Below, piece after piece: positions 921 through 25,092 of a stretch of DNA of 64,000 bases (positions are counted from its first letter, which is position 1; each line of letters opens with the position of its first letter). Under the pieces are notes generated by a model. It ran no database searches. It saw nothing but the letters and a program-made list of their open reading frames with translations, and was not told the origin of the DNA. The DNA is from Candidatus Bathyarchaeota archaeon (GTDB lineage: Archaea; Thermoproteota; Bathyarchaeia; TCS64). The stretch spans positions 27,886 through 91,885 of the forward strand of contig JADHWN010000005.1 of NCBI GenBank assembly GCA_016783455.1. Direction: 5' to 3'. The translations under genes and the position numbers were made by a program.

Positions 921-2618
921 TTATCCGAGCTCGCTCATGGAGGCTCGCAGGAATATCCTCGAGATGTTGTTTATCAGGTCCTTCTGTGAATAGACTCCTG
1001 CACTGTACCTGAAGTGCTCACCCATCCTCTCTGTGTCTACGCCGATACCTATCAGGATCATCCCGCCTCCCATGTAAGTTAAGTTATTCTCCTCCAAGGT
1101 TTCGTAAATGCCCTCGTAGCCATAGGGGTAGCCGTCCGAGATGACCAAGATGATCCTCTGCTCCTCAGCCTTGCCTTTCAAAAACTCAGCGGCGGCCATC
1201 AGTGCATCCGGCATGTAGGTCGTACCATCGAAGGGGACACCTCCGATCCGAGCCCGAACGCTCTTCGAGAAGGCCTCCGAGCCATCTTTTAAGACGTAGA
1301 GCCTATCGCTGAAGCCGTACATTGCACATGACGCGTTCTCGGTCACGAACGTGGCCACCGCGTCCGCTACGCAGATCGCCCTAGCCCTGTTCTCGCGTTC
1401 AGCAGTCCCCATACTCCTGCTCACGTCTATGAGGACGACGATGGCGAAGCTCTGCTTCATGAGCTCGTCTCTCTGGAAGACATCGCTCCTATCGCTCTTG
1501 CTGGCTACAACCTGGACTGCGTCGGCTAGGTCGAGGACACCGAACTTCTTTCTGATGTCCTCGAACTCTAAATTCGATGCCTGCATGATATTGTTGAGGA
1601 GGCGCCTCGATGAGCCCCCGACAATATCTTTGGCCCTAAGGTACTCATGGTAGTCCTCAGGTGGCATCTCTATCGATCTGAACCGAGTATCAGGGAGGCC
1701 TTCCTTTATCCTTGCCAGTATCTTTTCTTCTTTTTCTTTCTCAATCTTGCTGTTGCTGAAAACCTGCACTCCAGCGACTTCCTCTGACCTTATCCAGGTT
1801 GATGACATGTCGCTATCTTCTGGAAGCGGCTGTCCTAGAGCCCGCATGGCATCCTTGAAGAAGGTTTCAACTTCGGTATCATCAGGAGTCGACGTTCTTG
1901 AGTAGACGCTACTTGTAGAAGCATTCTCAGTGTAAGGAAAGGCCGGGAGTTCAACGAACGGCCCTTTGTCAGCGAGCCTGTCGTATATCCATTCAGCTGT
2001 CTCCTTCAGCCTTTCAAAGCCTATCTCGTCTTCACCTAGCGAAGACGAAATATATGATTTCAAATCGCGTAGCCTTTCTGCGATGTCATCGACAAGTTCA
2101 GCCTCAACTTTATCGAGCTCATCGAGCGGCTTTCCCCCGAAAACTTTGGCCAGTATCGCGGTCATGATCCGAGTTGATGGGAGGTATATCCTCTTCAAAG
2201 GTTTAAACGAGGAGGTCGCCAAAGCGTTGGCGTAGGCGAGGTCAGCAAGCCTATCCGGCTGCTCAGCCCCGATCTTGACCGTGGCGTAGACATCCTTGAT
2301 AAGCGTCTCGACGAACTCTGCTTGAATGGATTGCGCCTCAAGGAGTCTAGGTATCTCCGTCACAGTGTGAGCGGTGATGTGGGTCACAGTAGCTCTGAAA
2401 AGCCTTGAGGTTCTTCTCTTGCCGTCATCATTTTTCGGGAATGTGTAGCCGAGGAACTTTATGGACTCCTCGGTGATTCTAGGTTCAGGCAACCTGAGTT
2501 TAGGTAGATCTCCTTCATAATCTAGAGTCGGATAGGTCAGGGTTCTGTCTAAGAGGATCTTTATCCCGAATTTATCTTTCAGGAGGGAGTGTTTCTCAGC
2601 GTAGTCCCTGAACCCCAT
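921..2618 (-). CDS. VWA-domain protein, partner of a MoxR-type AAA+ ATPase
   Basis: 565 residues. A C-terminal von Willebrand A domain (about 390-550) carries a complete metal-ion-dependent adhesion site: DVSRS at 398-402, the GTTY threonines at 466-467, and the aspartate of VISDG at 495. The N-terminal 380 residues are mostly helical and charged, with a low-complexity Ser/Thr stretch near 232-248. This is the architecture of NorD/CobT-like proteins that work with MoxR/NorQ ATPases in metal insertion or in maturation and remodelling of protein complexes. It lies 19 bp downstream of the ATPase gene on the same strand, so the two are almost certainly co-transcribed and act together in the cytoplasm. 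The substrate cannot be read from the sequence, because no obvious metalloenzyme client gene is adjacent. Confidence 0.85.
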   Translation of the reverse strand: MGFRDYAEKHSLLKDKFGIKILLDRTLTYPTLDYEGDLPKLRLPEPRITEESIKFLGYTFPKNDDGKRRTSRLFRATVTHITAHTVTEIPRLLEAQSIQAEFVETLIKDVYATVKIGAEQPDRLADLAYANALATSSFKPLKRIYLPSTRIMTAILAKVFGGKPLDELDKVEAELVDDIAERLRDLKSYISSSLGEDEIGFERLKETAEWIYDRLADKGPFVELPAFPYTENASTSSVYSRTSTPDDTEVETFFKDAMRALGQPLPEDSDMSSTWIRSEEVAGVQVFSNSKIEKEKEEKILARIKEGLPDTRFRSIEMPPEDYHEYLRAKDIVGGSSRRLLNNIMQASNLEFEDIRKKFGVLDLADAVQVVASKSDRSDVFQRDELMKQSFAIVVLIDVSRSMGTAERENRARAICVADAVATFVTENASCAMYGFSDRLYVLKDGSEAFSKSVRARIGGVPFDGTTYMPDALMAAAEFLKGKAEEQRIILVISDGYPYGYEGIYETLEENNLTYMGGGMILIGIGVDTERMGEHFRYSAGVYSQKDLINNISRIFLRASMSELG

Positions 2619-14222: not shown

Positions 14223-15200
14223 TTGAAGAGACAAGGGATTTTTTTCCTCTTAGTGATATTATGCCTAGTTTCCGCCACAGTGCCCGCTGAGGGACAGGAG
14301 GAGAGATGGCTCGTCTCGTACAGCGTGGTGGACATGACTACGAAGCAGCTCGTCTTCGAGCAGGACTACGAGACCGGGAGGACCATCTCGAACGCCCCAA
14401 TGTTCGCTGGGGCTGAGTACAACATCACGGTGACCCTCGACATCGGCCTATCCGCTCCCTACGCCAATCTCAGTCTATGGGTGAACCTGAACCACGCCGA
14501 CTCCATAGATCGGTACTGGGAGATCCACACTGTGAGCCTCAACCTCACCGATGACTACAACCCGAACATTCCCACATTCAACTTCTGGCAGATAGAAGGG
14601 AGGTATGTCATCTCCACGTTCGGGAGGGTCCCAAGCGACCTGACAATGGTCGACCTCGGCAACGTGGTGCTGCATTTCCCCATCAATCACGTAACATTGC
14701 AGTTGAGAGGTCCCGACAACAGCCTTCTTGACGAGGTCAAGCTCACCATCATCGACTCGGAGATAGACAGCTACAACTTCTTCCTAGGTGAGCGGGAGGC
14801 CGACCTTCTGGAGTACGAGGAGGTTGGCGTAGACCCTGCATTCACAGATGTCTTCGAGAACTACATCAGCCTGGCCAAGTCCCAGGCTGAGAGGGGTTTC
14901 ATCCAGACGGCGAAGACGATCCTTGAGCCACTGGAGATCGAGATACCCCCCATACAGACGGGGCCCACCCTGGCGGACCAGTACTTCCTCCCTGCAGTGG
15001 GAGGCTTGGGGCTGCTCGTCGTTCTACTCGGCGTCCTCTTCTTCAAGGCGAGGGGGAGGATCGCGTTCACTTCCATGGTGATAGAGGACCAGATCCGGGA
15101 GCTGGAGGGCCTCACGATGAGGGCAGCCAGGACCGATAAGAACCTGGGGGAAAGGCTCCAGGAGATAAATAAGAGGTTGAAGGATATGGAGGGAATATAG
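14223..15200 (+). CDS. Secreted-domain, single-anchor membrane protein of the tubulin-like locus
   Basis: 325 residues starting at TTG 14223, with GGAGGGGG a few bases upstream. Residues about 1-25 form a signal peptide (basic start, hydrophobic core IFFLLVILCLVSATV, then AEG). Residues 26-250 are a beta-rich extracellular region with several N-x-S/T sequons (YNITV, ANLSL, LNLTD). A single membrane helix lies near 254-273 (AVGGLGLLVVLLGVLFF), followed by basic residues and a short cytoplasmic helix (LEGLTMRAARTDKNLGERL). Topology: outside N-terminal domain, inside C-terminal coiled coil. It abuts the FtsZ-like gene with no spacer (TAG then ATG), so they share an operon and probably act together. 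No known family is recognised; it could sense or anchor to the envelope. Confidence 0.75.
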   Translation: MKRQGIFFLLVILCLVSATVPAEGQEERWLVSYSVVDMTTKQLVFEQDYETGRTISNAPMFAGAEYNITVTLDIGLSAPYANLSLWVNLNHADSIDRYWEIHTVSLNLTDDYNPNIPTFNFWQIEGRYVISTFGRVPSDLTMVDLGNVVLHFPINHVTLQLRGPDNSLLDEVKLTIIDSEIDSYNFFLGEREADLLEYEEVGVDPAFTDVFENYISLAKSQAERGFIQTAKTILEPLEIEIPPIQTGPTLADQYFLPAVGGLGLLVVLLGVLFFKARGRIAFTSMVIEDQIRELEGLTMRAARTDKNLGERLQEINKRLKDMEGI

Positions 15201-17855
15201 ATGTCTGACATAGGATACTCAGGTGTCATCCACCTCGTGGGCTTAGGTGGGGCGGGCACAAACATTGTCGAGTCTTTCCTGAAGAACGAGAAGACCATGG
15301 AGCTCCTCGAAAGCGGGGTGACGCGGCTCTCCCTCATGGCCCTGGACATCGCCGACCCAGATATCAAGAGCCTAGAGGAGGCACACAAGAAGGTTCTCGA
15401 CGCGATGAAGAGGAACGGGGTCCCCAGGGAGCGCCTCAGCCTCATCGCGAGGTCCATCAAGTTCCCGAGCGCCGAGGCGATGTTCGACTTCGTCCATCAC
15501 AAGTTCAGCGAGCACTTGGTCAACGAGGGGATCAGGGTCAAGGAGTACTACCCCTGGCTGCCCTCCACTGTGGCGATCCCCCCCCTGGCCGGAGGTGCGG
15601 GGCGGCGTAGGTCCCTCGCCAAGGCCATCTACAACCTTAACTACTACCAGCTGGGTATCATAAAGTCCCTCATCAACATGTACAAGGACCACGCCCTCTC
15701 GTCCATCAACGCCCCCATCATCCTCCTGCTCTTCGGATTGGGCGGAGGGACGGGGAGCGGGATCGTCTTCGACTTCGCCCGCCACCTCAGGAAGTCCGTG
15801 GGCTCAGGAGTGCCGATCCTCGCACTGTGTGTGCTGCCCTGTGCGGGTGACGACCCACCGGCGAAGGGCTACTCGGCCTTCAACGCCATCAACGAGCTCA
15901 CGGCTCTCCTCAACAGGGAGACCAACGAGAAGCTGGTGGAGAAGCTCGGCGAGGAGTACAGGAACCCCTTCAACTCCGTCCTCTTCCTTCCCCTGATGCC
16001 CGCATACTCCAAGACCGGGAACATCATGCTCGCCCGGGACGAGATCGACCAGATGATCACGGAGATGATCTACGTCCTCATGGACTTCGACATGGCAGAC
16101 CTCATGAGCGGCATAGGCACCGAGGTAGGCCTCCTCGACAACAGCATCCACACGCTGAGCATGGTGAAGGTCAACTACCCCGTCGACGCCTACGTCGACG
16201 CTTTCAAGTCCAAGCTGGAGGAGATGCAGCAGCTCTCCCAGATCCGGCGGGAGAAGCTCAACTTCCTGGAGATGATCAACAAGGTCCTCGGGGTGAAGTA
16301 CGCGGAGGTCTCCACCCTCTACAAGCAGTACCTCATCAGGACTAACAGCTATGTCGAGGACGAGTTCGAGGAGAAGCTGAGGAGCCTCATCTACGGGAGT
16401 CCCCGGTTCGACGAGGACTACAACCTCTACATCAGGGGCGTCCAGGACCAGATAAAGAGCTGGATAGATGACTCCATCCAGTTCATCTCCACGATCAAGG
16501 TCGTCGCCCAGGAGGGCACCATCGAGGACTCCATAATGAAGCTCACACTCCAGACTGACGAGTCCTCGAACCAGGACAGCCTGGAGGGTCTCATGAAGAA
16601 CCTGATGAGGAACCACTCCGAGTTCTCTGAGCTCAAGACAGCCCTCTTCGAGCGCCTGCAGCAGCTAGTACCCAGCTCACAGCTACTAAGCGTGAGGCAG
16701 AAGAAGCTCGTGGAGGACTTCATGACCCTCGCCGACGTCACGGAGAAGGTCCTCGACATCCTCAGGTTCTACAACGAGACGAGGCACCTCACCGACGCCA
16801 TGATTCGGCGCTACGAGATCCTGCCCGAGGACGAGTTCCCGCCCATAAACTTCCAGGACTTCAAGGCCGAGCTGACGACGCTCTACCACCTACTCCAGCT
16901 CATGGTGAAGCACGCCTCCGACGAGGTGAAGATGATCGACGAGCACCTCACCTACCTCCAAGCCATCGTCGGCAAGTTCAGAGGCCGCAAGGAGACCATG
17001 GAGAACGAGCTCTACAGGCTCGAGGAGAGGCAGAAGCGGAAGGAGTTCGACAAGCAGAAGTACGAGAAGGAGTCGGGGGGCTTCTTCAGGTTCGGGAAGA
17101 AGAGGTACGCCAAGGAGAAGCTCAACGAGGTGGAGAGGGAGCTCCGGGTGATAAACGAGGAGATGCTGACCACCAATGAAGAGATCGGGAAGACCGACGT
17201 CGTCACAGACCTCTACAACGACCTCCTGAAGAACCTCGAGGTCACCTCGGACTACAGGAAGAAGCTGAACATCGTCCTCGACCTCAACAAGGAGTACCAG
17301 AGGCTGTTCTCAGAGATCATCAAGCCCAAGAGGTTCTACGAGAGGACGACGGAGTTGACCCAGGACGAGCAGGTGAAGATCATCTACAAGATCCTCGCGG
17401 AGCAGGAGGAGGCCCTGAGCAGGGAGGGGATCCTCAGGGAGATCCTGGACGTAGAGCACTTCAAGGACTACATGAGGAGCGTCGTCAGGGTCTACCGCAC
17501 ACCCAACATCATGGGCCTCAAGTCCAGCTTCAGGTCCGACTACCTCTGGGTAACCGTGCAGACCCCCCCAGGACTCTGGGACTCCGACCTCACCCAGGAG
17601 CTCTACACAGCCTTGGCCGGATACGTAACGGGGGACGTCTCGAAGACGATCACCGTGAGGGAGGTCAACGCCAGGGACCCATGGGTGATAAGGGTCGTCG
17701 TCGTGGGAGGCAGGAGCCGCGTGGAGGACCTGGCGACCTTCGACGAGATGGAGCGTCTCAACAGGAAGGCCTCGGACTTCGAGAAGGGGCTCTCCAAGTC
17801 GTTCCTGATAGAGCACAAGGCCTCACTGAAGGAGATCCTGAAGAAGGACTACTAG
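15201..17855 (+). CDS. FtsZ/tubulin-superfamily GTPase with long helical insertion
   Basis: 884 residues. The N-terminal GTPase domain has the first nucleotide loop GLGGAGTN (14-21) and the tubulin signature FGLGGGTGSG (178-187), followed by VLPCAGDDPPAKGYSAFNAI (211-230), where the superfamily has its guanine-contacting helix. From about 330 to 760 the protein is mostly helical and charged, with strong coiled-coil character around 590-720 and a basic GFFRFGKKRYAKEK patch. The C-terminal part, YLWVTVQTPP (from 781) to IRVVVVGGRSR (about 830-841), resembles the FtsZ C-terminal domain and matches the end of the neighbouring 383-residue protein. Tubulin-like proteins with VWA partners have been described in bacteria and archaea as membrane-remodelling candidates (Makarova and Koonin). 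It overlaps the convergent gene by four bases (CTAG). Confidence 0.85.
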   Translation: MSDIGYSGVIHLVGLGGAGTNIVESFLKNEKTMELLESGVTRLSLMALDIADPDIKSLEEAHKKVLDAMKRNGVPRERLSLIARSIKFPSAEAMFDFVHHKFSEHLVNEGIRVKEYYPWLPSTVAIPPLAGGAGRRRSLAKAIYNLNYYQLGIIKSLINMYKDHALSSINAPIILLLFGLGGGTGSGIVFDFARHLRKSVGSGVPILALCVLPCAGDDPPAKGYSAFNAINELTALLNRETNEKLVEKLGEEYRNPFNSVLFLPLMPAYSKTGNIMLARDEIDQMITEMIYVLMDFDMADLMSGIGTEVGLLDNSIHTLSMVKVNYPVDAYVDAFKSKLEEMQQLSQIRREKLNFLEMINKVLGVKYAEVSTLYKQYLIRTNSYVEDEFEEKLRSLIYGSPRFDEDYNLYIRGVQDQIKSWIDDSIQFISTIKVVAQEGTIEDSIMKLTLQTDESSNQDSLEGLMKNLMRNHSEFSELKTALFERLQQLVPSSQLLSVRQKKLVEDFMTLADVTEKVLDILRFYNETRHLTDAMIRRYEILPEDEFPPINFQDFKAELTTLYHLLQLMVKHASDEVKMIDEHLTYLQAIVGKFRGRKETMENELYRLEERQKRKEFDKQKYEKESGGFFRFGKKRYAKEKLNEVERELRVINEEMLTTNEEIGKTDVVTDLYNDLLKNLEVTSDYRKKLNIVLDLNKEYQRLFSEIIKPKRFYERTTELTQDEQVKIIYKILAEQEEALSREGILREILDVEHFKDYMRSVVRVYRTPNIMGLKSSFRSDYLWVTVQTPPGLWDSDLTQELYTALAGYVTGDVSKTITVREVNARDPWVIRVVVVGGRSRVEDLATFDEMERLNRKASDFEKGLSKSFLIEHKASLKEILKKDY

Positions 17856-19003
17856 AACTCCTCTATCTTCCTCTGCGTGTTATCAAGCAGGGTCTTCCTT
17901 ATCTTCCCCCAGATCTCCTTCTCGTAGAGCTCGTGCTCGACGATGAGGGTGCTGAACCTGGAGATACGCTTATCCATCGTCTCGAAGAGGTGCCCCGTCT
18001 CGAAGCCCCCAACGAGGACGACGACGTCGATCCTGTCGCCGTGCTCCTCAACGTAGACTGGCTCGCAGATCAACGGGGCGTTGAGGTCAGCCACATCCTT
18101 GAGCCAGCTATTGACCTCAAGCTCGATGTAGCCCTTGGGGAGCTGATACTGGAGCCTGAGGGGAGCCCTAACTAGGACGTAGACGAACTGGGCGGTGGAG
18201 AGGTCGAAGTCCAGGAGGGGCTGCTCAAGGGTTATGTCAAGGATGTTCCTCAGGCTCTCGTAGATTTCGAGGCTAGCACCCGCCGCCATGAGGGCGGTGA
18301 ACATGTCCACCTTGAACGAGTTGGACTGCTTCACTAGGTCCCGTATCAGGCCCCTCTTGTCAAGGAACAGCTCGACGAGGAAGTCTACAATATCCCCATT
18401 GGAGAGTCGCCCCCCTCCCCTGTTGACCCCTATGAACTGGCTCAGCCGGGTGTTGTCGAGGAGGATGATGGGTCCGGTCTCCGCGCCGAGGAGAAGCCCC
18501 AGGGATGAGAAGGCGTTGAAGAGGGCGTCCGAGCTGTAGTCCATGGACGGGAAGACGGCTAGAAATACGGCGTTCTTCTTGTCTCTCACCAGCTTCGAGT
18601 TGAGTGTGGGCAGGACACCTGCCGTGACGCCGTCCGAGAGGGAGCCCGATATCACGATCTCGTCGTGGTAGTCGAAGATCGTCTCATCGAGAGACTTTGT
18701 AAATTCCCCGTTTCCATCGATGTAGGAGTGGATGTCGAACCAGTAGTGGGGCTCGAAGACCGTGTCAAACATGAGGGTTGAGGCCGGATCAGGGGTTATC
18801 TCAACGGTTTTAAGGTCTAACTCCTTCCTATGGAGTATGTGGAGGAGTGTGGGCGTGTCAATACCATTGAAGCGCTTGGGGTTCCTCAACGCTTTAAAGG
18901 CGAACTGACCCACAGTTAATGCCAACTGGCTTGGGAGAACTGGGTTGATGCGGTCGATATGGGTCCTTATCTGCTTCAGGACGTCGAATCCGGACTCGGT
19001 CAT
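17852..19003 (-). CDS. Compact tubulin-fold paralogue with a degenerate nucleotide loop
   Basis: 383 residues from ATG 19003. The frame stays open upstream, but that part overlaps the divergent gene and looks non-coding. Residues 117-129 (VISGSLSDGVTAG) stand where the GGGTGSG loop is expected, so GTP binding is probably lost. Next come AVFLAVFPS and DYSSDALFNAFSSL (145-168), then IILLDNTRLSQFIGV (179-193), a spacing that mirrors the FtsZ strand-helix-strand after the signature. The end, FVYVLVRAP (273-281) to RIDVVVLVGGFETGHL (324-339), aligns with YLWVTVQTPP and IRVVVVGGRSRVEDL of the 884-residue protein. No signal peptide or membrane helix. I infer a pseudo-GTPase partner that could cap or co-assemble with the active protein. 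No named family is recognised. Confidence 0.7.
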   Translation of the reverse strand: MTESGFDVLKQIRTHIDRINPVLPSQLALTVGQFAFKALRNPKRFNGIDTPTLLHILHRKELDLKTVEITPDPASTLMFDTVFEPHYWFDIHSYIDGNGEFTKSLDETIFDYHDEIVISGSLSDGVTAGVLPTLNSKLVRDKKNAVFLAVFPSMDYSSDALFNAFSSLGLLLGAETGPIILLDNTRLSQFIGVNRGGGRLSNGDIVDFLVELFLDKRGLIRDLVKQSNSFKVDMFTALMAAGASLEIYESLRNILDITLEQPLLDFDLSTAQFVYVLVRAPLRLQYQLPKGYIELEVNSWLKDVADLNAPLICEPVYVEEHGDRIDVVVLVGGFETGHLFETMDKRISRFSTLIVEHELYEKEIWGKIRKTLLDNTQRKIEEF

Positions 19004-19054
19004 CTGGGGATAAGAAAAGGATTGGGAACTTAATATAAAAGGTGCGTTTCGGTC
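19004..19054. promoter_or_regulatory. 51-bp bidirectional promoter of the tubulin-like locus
   Basis: The only gap between the divergent starts at 19003 (minus) and 19055 (plus). A single near-symmetric AT element, CTTAATATAAAAG at 19029-19041, reads as a TATA box in both directions. It lies about 20 bp before the plus-strand ATG and about 32 bp before the minus-strand ATG, so both messages would be leaderless or nearly so. No ribosome site precedes either ATG, which agrees with this. The minus-strand spacing fits archaeal promoters well; the plus-strand spacing is slightly short. Confidence 0.5.
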
Positions 19055-21385
19055 ATGAGCATCACTTTCCTGAACGATGAGAGCTTCACGGACCAGACCG
19101 GTCGCGCGATAACCATCCTCGTGACAGCTATTAGCATGGCCCTCTCCTTCACCCTGATACCCCTCCTCCCGAAGCCGTTGCCTGTTATCGTCGCCCTCCT
19201 CGTCGCCTACCTTGTCTATAGGGACCCGCCGATGGGGGCCTTCGTGGGTAGCATGATCATAGCCTTTGGGGTGTTCTACCACCTCTCAAGGATCGGGTTC
19301 TTCCTCCTCTTCCCCCCGCCGTGGGTCCGCATGCTCGTCATGGTGGTGCTCCTCCTCCCCTTCTTTCTCGTCTCCACGCAGCTGTTCACCAACATCGCCA
19401 TCATCTCAATGGACATAGGCATACTCGCCGTCTCCCTCCTATTCTTCAAGTCGACGTACTACCTCGCAATTCCCATCATCCTCGTCTTCGCCACGATCTA
19501 CCGGAAGCGGGGTCTCATCGTCACCTTCTCCTACTACCTCTTCATCTCGCTCCCCCTCCAGGTCATGCAGTACCTGAAGACGTTTCAGGTGGGGATGGTA
19601 CCGCCCCTCTACACCCCTCTCGACGTCATATTTACGGACATCCAGCAGGCTATGGAGCAGGTCAGCCTCGAGGAGATCCAGAAGATCCTTGGTGTGATAA
19701 TGAGGCAGATACTGATGCTCAACGGGAACGGGGGGGATCTCCAGCCCGCCCTCAGTAGCTACGTCAACTCGTTCCCGGGGATGATCTTCTTCATACTTAT
19801 CATCTCGGCTCTCATCTCCGTAGCTGCCCTTTTAACGCTGAAGCTCCCGGAGCCCCTGAAGAGGAGCAGGCTCCCGAGGAGGTATATGGACACGCTTATC
19901 TACGTCATACCAGTGGGTGTCGCCATCTTCACGAACATGGTCTTCTTCGTCCTCCTTGACATCCTCCAGGGACCCCTGGCGTTCCAGGCGAGCGTGGATC
20001 CTACGATACTCATGCTCTCAACGAGCTTCACCCTCTTCCTCTCGGCCCCCGTCTCCCTGTCAAAGTACATCGTCGACCTGAGGGATGTATTGGCAGATCG
20101 GAAGGCTGAGCTGAAGAACAGGGCCGAGTCCCTCCTCGAGGAGGTGGACCACTACATATGGCTGATGAACCTGCTGGGAGACCCCATTCCCCAGGGCTTC
20201 ATCTCACTCCACACCCGGATGCTCATAGTCGCCGACGAGCTGAAGGACACGATCGCCCTCTCCTCCGATGGCCCCTCGACCCTCAAGGAGGTGGACCCCC
20301 TCATGAGAAGGGTGTTCACCCATCTCCAGGATGAGGTCTCCAACTTCAGGTGGCAGCTCGACATCGCCCTTGACGACTATTACATCAAGATCAAGTTCGA
20401 GTTCCTCGAGTCTGCCAGGGAGATACGTGAGCTAGGACTGGAGGTGGAGCTACCCGAGATACGTGATCCTCCCAAGGACGCACCTCTGGAGGAGAAGGTC
20501 GAGAGCATACTGTGGGTGATGGACGCCGGGGGCAATCTGGTGGACAAGCTCATCTCCACATCGGACAAGATCTACGAGATCATCTGCTCCCTCTTTGAGC
20601 CCTCCCTCCCGGGGGTGAGCCCCATCATCCAGATCTCCAAGGAGAAGCAGGAGAGCGACGAGCCCTGGGTCATCATAGAGGCCATCCTCGCCTCCCTCAG
20701 GAACTGGGAGAAGCAGTACTCCGCTGAGATAATGCGGTCCACGAAGCCCATACAGGACTCCGTGGAAGCCGTCATCGAGCTCAGGAAGAGGGAGGGAGCC
20801 CTCCTGCCCATCCTCGGCGACAGGTTCACCCTCATCAGCGACCTGGCTGGGAAGCTCGAGGTCAGGGATTTCGGTAGAGAGGACGACCTGAAGGTGCTCA
20901 GGGTCATCCTCATCAGGGACACCATCTTCTCCACCGTGGACGTCGTGGCCAGGGTTGTGGGGGTTCTCTACGATCACCTGAGGGAGCTGGAGGCCGACAT
21001 CGACTCCCTGATGCCCATGGAGGACTATGAGTGGAACAAGAACCTCACCCTCCTCGACAGGATGAACACGAGCCTCGGGGTCATAAACCACTACGAGAGC
21101 CACGAGATCAACGAGATCATCAGCCACCTCTACAGGGTGCTCAGCTACATAGACGAGGCTGTGGACACGGTGCAGTACTACAACGAGAGGAAGGAGCTCC
21201 TGCTCAACTACCGCATTCTGGAGAAGAAGATTGGGCGCATACTCGCGGATAACGATCAGGTGAGCCTGGATGACCTCGGCGTCTCGGAGAAGTTCGGCAG
21301 GGAGTACCTGAAGCTCTACCTCCGAGGGCATTACACTGAGATCCCCCTGGAAGAGGTCGGGAGCTCCCTGAGGAGGGTTAGCTAG
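19055..21385 (+). CDS. Polytopic membrane protein with long cytoplasmic helical region (tubulin-like locus)
   Basis: 776 residues. Residues about 17-165 contain several hydrophobic helices (for example AISMALSFTLIPLL, VALLVAYLVY, MLVMVVLLLPFFLV, IISMDIGILAVSLLFF). A soluble loop (about 170-240) is followed by three or four more helices up to residue 345 (MIFFILIISALISVAALL, YVIPVGVAIFTNMVFFVLL, ILMLSTSFTLFLSAPVSL). Residues 350-776 are hydrophilic and almost entirely helical, with coiled-coil-like segments such as RKAELKNRAESLLEEVDHY and EELLNYRILEKKIGR-type stretches near the end. No enzyme motif was found. It overlaps the next gene by one base (TAGTG) and is divergent from the degenerate tubulin. 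It is the likely membrane platform for the locus. Confidence 0.75.
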   Translation: MSITFLNDESFTDQTGRAITILVTAISMALSFTLIPLLPKPLPVIVALLVAYLVYRDPPMGAFVGSMIIAFGVFYHLSRIGFFLLFPPPWVRMLVMVVLLLPFFLVSTQLFTNIAIISMDIGILAVSLLFFKSTYYLAIPIILVFATIYRKRGLIVTFSYYLFISLPLQVMQYLKTFQVGMVPPLYTPLDVIFTDIQQAMEQVSLEEIQKILGVIMRQILMLNGNGGDLQPALSSYVNSFPGMIFFILIISALISVAALLTLKLPEPLKRSRLPRRYMDTLIYVIPVGVAIFTNMVFFVLLDILQGPLAFQASVDPTILMLSTSFTLFLSAPVSLSKYIVDLRDVLADRKAELKNRAESLLEEVDHYIWLMNLLGDPIPQGFISLHTRMLIVADELKDTIALSSDGPSTLKEVDPLMRRVFTHLQDEVSNFRWQLDIALDDYYIKIKFEFLESAREIRELGLEVELPEIRDPPKDAPLEEKVESILWVMDAGGNLVDKLISTSDKIYEIICSLFEPSLPGVSPIIQISKEKQESDEPWVIIEAILASLRNWEKQYSAEIMRSTKPIQDSVEAVIELRKREGALLPILGDRFTLISDLAGKLEVRDFGREDDLKVLRVILIRDTIFSTVDVVARVVGVLYDHLRELEADIDSLMPMEDYEWNKNLTLLDRMNTSLGVINHYESHEINEIISHLYRVLSYIDEAVDTVQYYNERKELLLNYRILEKKIGRILADNDQVSLDDLGVSEKFGREYLKLYLRGHYTEIPLEEVGSSLRRVS

Positions 21386-22302
21386 TGGACAAGATCAAGG
21401 GTAAGCTGAGGAGCGGTCAACGGGCTTACATTGAGCTCAAGGACGGCTCCGTCAACGTCTCCATGGAGCGGGGGCTCATCATGAAGAGCCTCGTGGTCCA
21501 CAGGGAGCTCCCGCTATCCGAGATCACACACGTGACGCTTGAGAAGGACAGCTCCCCCCGGAGTAGGAATCATCACCTGACCCTTGTGTACGGTGAGGGT
21601 GAGGAGGAGGTCTTCTCCTCGACCGAGGACGAGCCTCTTGAAGCCCTCCGGTCCCAGATAGCGGCTGACCTGGAGCGGCGGAGGGCTGAGCGTGAGAGGG
21701 AGGAGGCCGAGAGGAGGCGGGTCTGGGAGGCACATGTCCACCAGATATCCCTCATGCTGGACCTCATGGAGGAGGTCTTCCTCATGCTAGAGGGGCTGCA
21801 GGGATGGGTCGAGTGGACGGGTATCGGGGGCCACCTTGTACAGCTTGAGCACGTCATCGGGGAGATGAGGGAGATAGAGGTCCTGGCGCCTCTGAAGTAC
21901 GACCTCCAGGGCCTCAATACAGCCGTGAGGAGGAGGCTCCCCGGGGCGATCAGGGAGGAGTGCTTCGCGGTCCTCACAGTCCTCAGGCAGGACATAGAGC
22001 GGCTCTCCAAGTCCGATGAGTCCTCCATGGGCTTCGACCTAAGGCTCTACGAGCGGTTCGTGGGCGCCTACTTCCTCCTCTGGGATATCAACCTCTCGGA
22101 GTTCCTGGGAGAGCCAGCTGAGAGGGCGGAGGTCATCGAGTTGAACACCTTCCTTGAGAGGCTGAGCAGCCTAGAGGTCAACGGGGAGGCAGAGGTGCCT
22201 CGATTCCCCGATCTAACCGAGATCGATGTCCTCGGCCCTAAGATCAAAGATATCCGGGGTGCAATCCAGTTCCATCTACACGCCCTCTTAGACGGAATAT
22301 GA
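21385..22302 (+). CDS. PH-like-domain protein with helical C-terminus (tubulin-like locus)
   Basis: 305 residues from GTG 21385, which shares one base with the upstream stop, so it is translationally coupled to the membrane protein. Residues about 10-75 alternate short strands and end in a helix (AYIELKDGSVNVSM, LVVHRELPLSEITHVTLEK, HHLTLVYGEGEEEVFSS, DEPLEALRSQIAADLE). That is the pattern of bacterial/archaeal PH-like domains, which bind lipid or protein. A very charged helix, RRRAEREREEAERRR, links to a helical domain (about 115-305). No signal peptide or membrane helix. Adaptor between membrane and filament is a reasonable inference; no family is recognised for the C-terminal part. Confidence 0.65.
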   Translation: MDKIKGKLRSGQRAYIELKDGSVNVSMERGLIMKSLVVHRELPLSEITHVTLEKDSSPRSRNHHLTLVYGEGEEEVFSSTEDEPLEALRSQIAADLERRRAEREREEAERRRVWEAHVHQISLMLDLMEEVFLMLEGLQGWVEWTGIGGHLVQLEHVIGEMREIEVLAPLKYDLQGLNTAVRRRLPGAIREECFAVLTVLRQDIERLSKSDESSMGFDLRLYERFVGAYFLLWDINLSEFLGEPAERAEVIELNTFLERLSSLEVNGEAEVPRFPDLTEIDVLGPKIKDIRGAIQFHLHALLDGI

Positions 22303-23658: not shown

Positions 23659-25092
23659 ATGGGCTCTCCTCCTCTGGACCAACTGACGATCCTTCAGTCC
23701 AGCGTCCGGCTGGGCGACCCCCATACCGTGAGCGACTCCGCCAATCGCAACAGCCTCATCGCAGCCATCTACGACTCCCTCGTCAGCCGCAACATGACTG
23801 GGAGCTACGTCCCATGTCTGGCGGAGAGCTGGAGCGTGGAGGGCGACGCCATGACATGGGTCTTCGATCTGCGCCAGAAGGTCTCCTTCCACAATGGAGA
23901 TGTCCTGACCGCCAGCGATGTCTTGGCGACCATGGGGAGGGTGCTGGACCCGGCGATCGGGGGAGCTTTCGGCACTCAGGGGGTCTTCGCGAGCTACCTG
24001 GGAGACTCCGTCATCGAGGCGGAGGGGAAGTACTCCGTCAAGATCTTGACGGGAGAGCCCATGGCCGACCTCCTCGACCTCCTTGTGAACGTGCCCATAG
24101 CCCCTGAGAGCGCCCTGAAGGATCTCCCGGAATCCTACGTTGGTAGCGGCCCCTATAGGGTCTCCGAGATGGGGGACGATCTCGTCGTCCTGGATGCATT
24201 CCCCGAATATTGGGGTGGGCAGATCCCGGCCCAGCGGCTGCACTGGCGCGCGGTCAGAGACCCCCAGGAGAGGGCCTCCGCCCTAATTGAGGGGCGGGGG
24301 GACCTTGCCTCGGGGTTGAGCCCGGAGGAGGTGAAAGCGGTCGAGGCCTCGGGGAGCGCAACGGCTGTGTGGAGGGACAGCAACCTGTGCATCATCTTCA
24401 TGTTCAACGCCTCCTCGGGGGTCTGCTCCGACAGCAGGGTCCGGAGGGCCCTCAACCTCGCATTGGACAAGAATGCGATCATCTCCGAGGCCGTGGGGGG
24501 AGCGGCGAAGCCCCTGAACGGCATCTTCACGCCTCTGCATTTTGGATACGATCCCGACACCCCCGTCTACCCCTACAACCCCGAGCAGGCAAGGAGCCTC
24601 CTCGCCGAGGCCGGATACAGTGACGGAATGAGGCTCGTTATGGACATCCCCACGAGGATGCCCGACGAGGCCCGGAAGCTTGCTCAGATGATGACCGAGA
24701 TGTACTCCGAGGTAGGGGTCAGCGTGGAGGTGAAGGAGTACGAGGATCGGCAGGCCTACGCCGAGATGGTGAGGGCCAAGAAGATCAACGACCTCTGCTG
24801 CTTCGACTCCAGCCCCCTGAGCACCTTCAGGGTGATGCGTGAGAAGGTACACTCGGGCATCAAGGGGCCGTGGTGGGAGGGGTACACCAACGTCGAGGTG
24901 GACGCCCTCATCGAGAGGGCCGAGGCGACCCTGGACGAGTCGCTGAGACGGAGGATCTACAGGCTAGCCTACCGGATGATAAGGGACGACGCCCTCTGGG
25001 TGTTCCTGTACAGCCCAGTCAGGTTCTGGGGCGTGGGGCCGAGGCTGAGGGGCTGGAGGCCGGGAAATGACGGCGTAATCCGCTTCACCTGA
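23659..25092 (+). CDS. Family 5 extracellular solute-binding protein (peptide/nickel type) without a signal peptide
   Basis: 477 residues. The body is a clear SBP family 5 (DppA/OppA) protein: YDSLVSRNMTGSYVPCLAES, then WVFDLRQKVSFHNGDVLTASDV, a central VRRALNLALDKNAII, and NPEQARSLLAEAGY. These proteins bind oligopeptides or metals outside the cell for an ABC importer. This one starts MGSPPLDQLTILQSSVRLGD with no signal peptide, lipobox or membrane helix, and no DppB/C/D/F genes are near. No ribosome site precedes ATG 23659; TTTCTTTAAGG near 23620-23630 looks like a TATA element placed for a leaderless message, which supports this start. It may therefore be cytoplasmic and act as a sensor or scavenger. 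Confidence 0.85.
   Translation: MGSPPLDQLTILQSSVRLGDPHTVSDSANRNSLIAAIYDSLVSRNMTGSYVPCLAESWSVEGDAMTWVFDLRQKVSFHNGDVLTASDVLATMGRVLDPAIGGAFGTQGVFASYLGDSVIEAEGKYSVKILTGEPMADLLDLLVNVPIAPESALKDLPESYVGSGPYRVSEMGDDLVVLDAFPEYWGGQIPAQRLHWRAVRDPQERASALIEGRGDLASGLSPEEVKAVEASGSATAVWRDSNLCIIFMFNASSGVCSDSRVRRALNLALDKNAIISEAVGGAAKPLNGIFTPLHFGYDPDTPVYPYNPEQARSLLAEAGYSDGMRLVMDIPTRMPDEARKLAQMMTEMYSEVGVSVEVKEYEDRQAYAEMVRAKKINDLCCFDSSPLSTFRVMREKVHSGIKGPWWEGYTNVEVDALIERAEATLDESLRRRIYRLAYRMIRDDALWVFLYSPVRFWGVGPRLRGWRPGNDGVIRFT

Follow-up and report, generated by a model that had tools for sequence, protein, structure and literature searches.

FtsZl1 proteins were described in 2010 as consisting of an N-terminal FtsZ-like domain, a long helical region and a mostly helical C-terminus, with a T7 loop and a C-terminal domain that were not identifiable, and were predicted to belong to membrane-remodelling operons with a vWA-domain gene and often a kinase or a P-loop GTPase (Makarova and Koonin 2010, PMC2875224, available portion of the text). 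In tubulin phylogenies FtsZl1/Tubulin_2 proteins have been set aside, partly since a C-terminal tubulin or FtsZ domain was unrecognised (PMC9871819, excerpt). Alpha and beta tubulin each bind one guanosine triphosphate (GTP); K254 of beta-tubulin keeps the GTP of alpha unhydrolysed, E254 of alpha completes the site of beta, and AtubAB has been suggested to have reached a defective interface by convergence (PMC13394414, excerpt). From Bathyarchaeia, non-canonical FtsZ-like sequences of unknown role (PMC9723716, excerpt) and a single long-branch tubulin (PMC13394414, excerpt; not compared with protein C below) have been reported. Here we describe five genes, A to E, on a stretch of 64,000 nucleotides (the window) from a Candidatus Bathyarchaeota archaeon (assembly GCA_016783455.1, 2.19 Mb, 83 contigs, 74.7% complete; contig JADHWN010000005.1, positions 27,886 to 91,885). 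Genes A to D proved to form one conserved unit whose association is beyond chance, and we consider it probable that they make a membrane-anchored tubulin-type filament system, with B as the active GTPase subunit and C as a partner of predicted tubulin fold that would bind no GTP. The coordinates and strands of the five open reading frames (ORFs) agree with those in an earlier model-made reading of the sequence (the first-pass annotation):

14223..15200, plus strand: gene A, 325 residues; predicted signal peptide, extracellular domain, one transmembrane stretch and cytosolic tail
15201..17855, plus strand: gene B, 884 residues; FtsZl1-type (Tubulin_2) GTPase with a helical insert
17852..19003, minus strand: gene C, 383 residues; tubulin-superfamily protein with a degenerate nucleotide pocket
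19004..19054, no strand: C–D intergenic region, 51 base pairs (bp); divergent starts, likely two-way promoter region
19055..21385, plus strand: gene D, 776 residues; predicted polytopic membrane protein with a long cytosolic tail
21385..22302, plus strand: gene E, 305 residues; peripheral, part-time neighbour

The window was compared with 27 other loci (7 from Candidatus Bathyarchaeota contigs and 20 from further genomes), and profile searches detected B in all 28, A in 27, C in 24, D in 21 (not counting a diverged D in L059) and E in 11. All 21 loci with A, B, C and D, including L056 and L057, where D and A, respectively, are cut by contig ends yet present, run A, B, C, D on strands + + − +, with C and D divergent, so that for these four genes the set does stay together in other genomes, a point that the first-pass annotation had proposed to check. 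Five of the seven incomplete loci (L010, L047, L048, L051 and L058) hit a contig end, and the other two (L059 and L060) are genuinely different. Since each flanking gene family was shared by at most 9 of the 28 loci, the flanks turn over and the unit stays. Joint presence was assessed by searching each protein or profile in the same 201 genomes of the class at E ≤ 1e-20. B was found in 32 genomes, A in 29 (every one with B), C in 30 (29 with B, 1 without), D in 31 (30 with B, 1 without) and E in 31 (26 with B, 5 without); Fisher p-values for co-occurrence with B, which ignore relatedness, were 2e-30 to 3e-32 for A, C and D and 4e-22 for E. The one genome with C and D but no B, G189, has its C at a contig edge. 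Conversely, B occurred without A in G004, G095 and G132, without C in G004, G059 and G165, and without D in G004 and G084; contig ends explain G095, G132, G165 and G084, leaving G004 (B alone) and G059 (no C) as exceptions. Gene E, counted by the first-pass annotation as a core member of a five-gene set, proved inconstant: it adjoins D in 10 of the 28 loci, lies upstream of A in one and is found at other genomic places in other genomes. Neighbours regularly occurring without the tubulin-like genes, an outcome that the annotation had named as contrary to its proposal, were thus not seen for A, C and D and were seen in part for E.

The unit is patchily distributed, with no B in 169 of the 201 class genomes, and in the same-genus genome G080 (2.3 Mb, one contig, 92% complete) searches for A to E were all negative. 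Genome G028 may retain the trace of a lost unit: it gave no match to A, B or C, but a 142-residue D-like fragment (L069 8420–8848, E 4e-5) immediately precedes its E. This distribution bears on the idea that the unit is a cell-division accessory to the FtsZ ring. Like the archaeal FtsZ–SepF division machinery, the unit belongs to the tubulin superfamily and is predicted to be membrane-tethered; its tubulin-superfamily GTPase has membrane partners, and elsewhere the same genome encodes SepF and two FtsZ proteins that both contain an FtsZ_C domain, and these could recruit it. Unlike that machinery, whose FtsZ and SepF are separate genes of the same genome, the unit is patchy, and no SepF match was found in A or D. 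Because B is present in only 32 of 201 genomes and G080 has none of A to E, the unit is dispensable for division in relatives; because the genome has two FtsZ proteins and SepF and most of the class shows no B, division is unlikely to be its job. We therefore regard an accessory role in division as quite improbable, and the filament system is likely separate from the cell-division ring.

The identification of B as an FtsZ-like, tubulin-superfamily protein in the first-pass annotation was borne out by matches to PF13809 (7.7e-14; 52.1 bits, curated cut-off 27) and PF00091 (7.8e-08). The following features were located in B:

15735..15761, plus strand: T4 loop GLGGGTGSG, residues 179–187, from conservation
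16083..16100, plus strand: T7 loop DFDMAD, residues 295–300, from conservation and model
16182..17525, plus strand: long helical insert, residues 328–775, inside the tubulin fold between strand 315–325 and strand 781–788
17526..17783, plus strand: predicted C-terminal tubulin/FtsZ domain, residues 776–861, after the insert

The signature GGGTG[ST]G was exact in 63 of the 67 aligned B sequences, the remaining 4 having S for T184 and one of them also G for S186. D297 and D300 were present in all 67, and in the predicted model the T7 position lies between helix 275–294 (H7) and helix 298–305 (H8). The insert measured 445–462 residues across residues 326–780 in the 67 sequences, with modelled helices of up to about 55 residues. 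After it, the model places a domain with the order strand-helix-strand-strand, and the VIA-align ranges with CetZ and FtsZ reach residues 839–861. The fold predicted for B is accordingly the complete two-domain fold of tubulin, which bears the T4 and T7 motifs and encloses a helical arm of roughly 450 residues. The FtsZl1 layout of an FtsZ-like N-terminus, a helical middle and a mostly helical C-terminus was likewise found in the B model, coiled coil as such not being computed, and within the last region there is also a domain with strands, consistent with the C-terminal domain of tubulin.

Protein C had no Pfam match above cut-off; its profile aligned to tubulin and CetZ structures along some 85 residues around T4 (AtubB2 8.5e-6, CetZ 3zid 1.2e-5), and its predicted model is a full two-domain tubulin fold, nearest to OdinTubulin and eukaryotic tubulins. 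Two positions were of particular interest:

18617..18643, minus strand: degenerate T4 SLSDGVTAG, residues 121–129, where the superfamily has GGGTG(S/T)G
18338..18340, minus strand: acidic residue at the T7/H8 position, residue 222, D in 30 of 56 sequences and E in 26

In the alignment of 56 C sequences the glycines of T1 and T4 were lost and GGGTG[ST]G occurred in none; residue 124 was E, D or N, residue 216 was basic, and G125 and P132 were kept, in all 56. This sequence pattern suggests that C would be a partner that binds no GTP. The lost glycines could also mark C as a functionless decaying duplicate, as could genome G176, in which C lies in three pieces and B and D are also fragmented. 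Against such decay stand the 64 C homologues reported, the single reading frame of C in 29 of 30 genomes (stops in six rows lay at match ends where coordinates were compared), the invariance of G125, P132, basic 216 and acidic 222, and the congruence of the C tree with the B tree, and we consider decay hardly credible. In gene trees on 20 loci, compared by shared splits (of 17) and by distance correlations with no outside marker, B and C had 15 splits in common, B and D 13 and C and D 12, and the correlations among the gene trees were 0.90–0.98; such congruence could also be obtained from vertical or shared descent alone. In eight loci of family f8 (L044, L045, L049, L050 and L052–L055) C is 452–557 residues long, owing to a C-terminal tail of low complexity, charged and rich in proline, that the C proteins of the window's family lack.

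Family and PDB searches gave no convincing family for A, D or E. In A, hydropathy peaks were found at residues 4–22 (signal-like) and, as two overlapping peaks that make one anchor, at 250–282. The tail of about 50 residues had a mean pairwise identity of 0.56 against 0.35 for the ectodomain (25 sequences), the pattern expected for a variable exterior and a tail that engages a conserved partner within the cell. The window's A had no Pfam or NCBIfam match, its relatives had scattered weak Pfam matches (best 0.0028), and no PDB match fell below E 1.9. D showed nine partly overlapping hydropathy peaks at residues 19–299 and none in the tail; no Pfam or NCBIfam family exceeded the cut-off (best 0.17 and 0.076), and its PDB matches (best 0.0036, on the helical tail) look like coiled-coil noise. 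For E, judged by eye to have a beta-rich N-terminus and to be helical in the rest, the PH-like label of the first-pass annotation found no support: Pfam searches with 11 members gave 12 weak families, none of them PH, and the PDB gave no match below E 0.68.

Beyond the class, a search of 300 genomes of the phylum with the B profile (E ≤ 0.001) gave matches in 16, of which 12 were strong, 10 within the class and 2 of family f34. Both f34-class genomes with B (2 of 7 genomes of that class examined) carry on a single strand, in the arrangement A-B-D-C, genes for A, B, an 818–819-residue membrane protein and a 319–329-residue C homologue. In its hydropathy layout the membrane protein resembles D, and hhalign aligned the two over 44 C-terminal columns (95.9%, E 5.1e-9); the C homologue gave E 2.5e-6 and 6e-5 against C in hmmsearch, and in hhalign 64.7% with E 6.2e-5. 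C is inverted between B and D in Bathyarchaeia; because f34 has all four genes on one strand, C is not bound to the opposite strand. The f34 unit stands head to head with a PCNA gene confirmed by Pfam (L103 7383–8135 onward; L104 12266 onward), and neighbouring ORFs may, by eye, be replication genes. In the G059 cluster the fourth gene, after D (P0185, L059 7949–8989), occupies the f34 position of C and has by eye an N-terminal CxxC-like, zinc-ribbon-like stretch; profile tests of it do not show tubulin. Two of the four weak B-profile matches (G215 and G420) covered the helical part only; the other two (G276 and G429) were Tubulin_2 proteins of 1051 and 1016 residues with other neighbours. These two proteins (L105 7552–10707 and L106 8307–11357) have by eye a hydrophobic N-terminus, their genes each adjoin one for a 769- or 695-residue protein without a Pfam family, and they recall the Sulfolobus FtsZl1 of the 2010 paper (PMC2875224, available portion).

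Among the known systems, B is most like FtsZl1/Tubulin_2 in its FtsZ-like N-terminal domain with GGGTG(S/T)G, its long helical middle and its PF13809 match, and the locus shares with that group membrane-protein neighbours and an ordinary FtsZ in the same genome. The unit could simply be an archaeal edition of the 2010 membrane-remodelling or vesicle system, with B as the sole motor and C, A and D as lineage-specific accessories, C being a scaffold outside the filament. B fits the FtsZl1 description (PMC2875224, available portion), the B and C profiles match very weakly, and B occurs without a recognisable C in G004 and G059. Unlike the FtsZl1 operons, however, the unit has no vWA, P-loop GTPase, kinase or OmpA gene (no such domain was found in A to E or in six flanking genes of the window; the flanks of relatives were not scanned throughout), and it regularly includes a second tubulin-superfamily protein, C being present in 29 of the 32 genomes with B, with one of the three misses at a contig end. 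The nearest vWA match in the genome (PF13519, the only family searched; window 1131–1442, minus strand, 2.8e-10) lies in a 567-residue frame about 13 kb upstream, and the three genes checked between it and the unit encode a DUF1846 protein, a phosphoglycerate mutase and a prolyl-tRNA synthetase. In addition, the C model keeps a complete tubulin fold and, unlike in the 2010 account, the T7 loop and C-terminal domain of B could be placed by model and conservation. The link drawn by the first-pass annotation to the theme of Makarova and Koonin thus stands for B, which is of the FtsZl1 kind, and does not extend to the vWA, P-loop GTPase and kinase partners; overall, we regard the archaeal FtsZl1 edition as unlikely. 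B might also stand in for CetZ in a CetZ-like cytoskeleton for cell shape or motility, a reading that seems rather doubtful. Unlike CetZ, B has its 445–462-residue insert and C lacks nucleotide loops, and CetZ_C (PF21011) matched neither B nor C, while the CetZ of genome G027 matched at 4.8e-37. We know of no description of dedicated membrane partners or of a helical insert in CetZ, which also counts against this reading. The G027 protein (L080 8661–9998) is a true CetZ in a Bathyarchaeia genome and has a weak zinc-ribbon-like C-terminus.

As in the Asgard AtubAB and the eukaryotic alpha/beta heterodimers, there are two tubulin-superfamily proteins per system, with one interface predicted to be inactive. 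Alpha and beta tubulin each bind a GTP (PMC13394414, excerpt), in contrast to C with its T1 and T4 motifs lost; nor does B belong to tubulin proper. C looks like the unequal-interface principle of tubulin pairs carried further, with a dead pocket and a retained acidic residue on the T7 side. In the membrane-anchored filament system that we favour, the B arm would sit between strands S7 and S8, where tubulin has the M-loop and helix H9, and would not obstruct the longitudinal faces, formed by the GTP pocket and T7; B would polymerise head to tail on GTP. C may dock through its T7 side onto the GTP face of B, where it may complete the active site of B and, because its own pocket appears dead, would cap or space the filament. 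Anchoring to the membrane would be through the A and D tails, the A ectodomain would reach outside, and the output would be envelope shaping or membrane remodelling rather than a division ring. In the more specific form, which we put forward tentatively as a possibility, B and C are an asymmetric pair in which B binds and hydrolyses GTP, nucleotide-free C serves only as T7 donor and cap, and A and D wire the pair through the membrane. Of the membrane-linked machine put forward in the first-pass annotation, the conserved unit of two tubulin-superfamily proteins with membrane partners is retained; the membrane-remodelling role we only infer.

Several observations weigh against the filament system in this form. 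The B and C profiles hardly match (hhalign probability 13.8, E 0.002), which makes the term 'paralogue' in the first-pass description of C as a degenerate tubulin paralogue too strong, its place in the tubulin superfamily being upheld by the profile and the full-fold model; because B and C scarcely match each other, they need not meet like tubulin subunits. The f34 C homologue is weaker still (hmmsearch values above), and the T7 register of C is ambiguous, with an uncertainty of three residues relative to FtsZ D209 or D212. Profile-profile searches found no match for the C-terminal domain of B, which is thus placed by the predicted model only. G004, with B alone, and G059, with A, B and D without a recognisable C, suggest that in some lineages B can function in the absence of C. 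The A tree agrees poorly with the others (9 of 17 splits with B, 7 with C and 8 with D). In L051 about 3.7 kb of a shared contig separates B from C; in L010 B is spread over two frames, and on contig C10 of G176 B, C and D are each in pieces, the broken genes of these last two reflecting either assembly error or decay of the unit.

If the asymmetric B–C pair is real, paired tubulins with one dead interface would have been invented again, independently of alpha/beta and AtubAB, and for the first time with a nucleotide-free half, as far as the listed matches in open-licence PubMed Central go; among these matches, no title or abstract start described the gene set or a nucleotide-dead tubulin partner. 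The predicted C-terminal domain after the 450-residue insert would return FtsZl1/Tubulin_2 to the full tubulin-fold proteins, and the insert would be a simple reason why this domain was missed. With a partner whose GTP site is conserved yet dead nearly always beside B, the old question of why tubulin systems keep reaching unequal pairs would become directly testable, and the four conserved proteins with their predicted anchors offer a compact set to express and reconstitute.

The tight packing reported in the first-pass annotation was also confirmed, with a gap of 0 bp between A and B, a 4-bp overlap of the 3' ends of B and C, 51 bp between the ATG of C (19003, minus strand) and that of D (19055), and a 1-bp overlap of D and E. 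The longest minus-strand ORF for C has 476 residues and overlaps D by 228 bp; because the C ORFs of relatives in the window's family have 374–407 residues and 18 of the 21 loci, when their longest ORFs are taken, still have a C–D gap of 22–64 bp, the 383-residue version likely has the true start. With C and D divergent in all 21 loci, the 51-bp stretch is likely a two-way promoter region. Downstream of the unit, a SBP_bac_5 solute-binding protein (window 23659–25092) directly follows an MFS transporter and, read from ATG, has no obvious signal peptide by eye.
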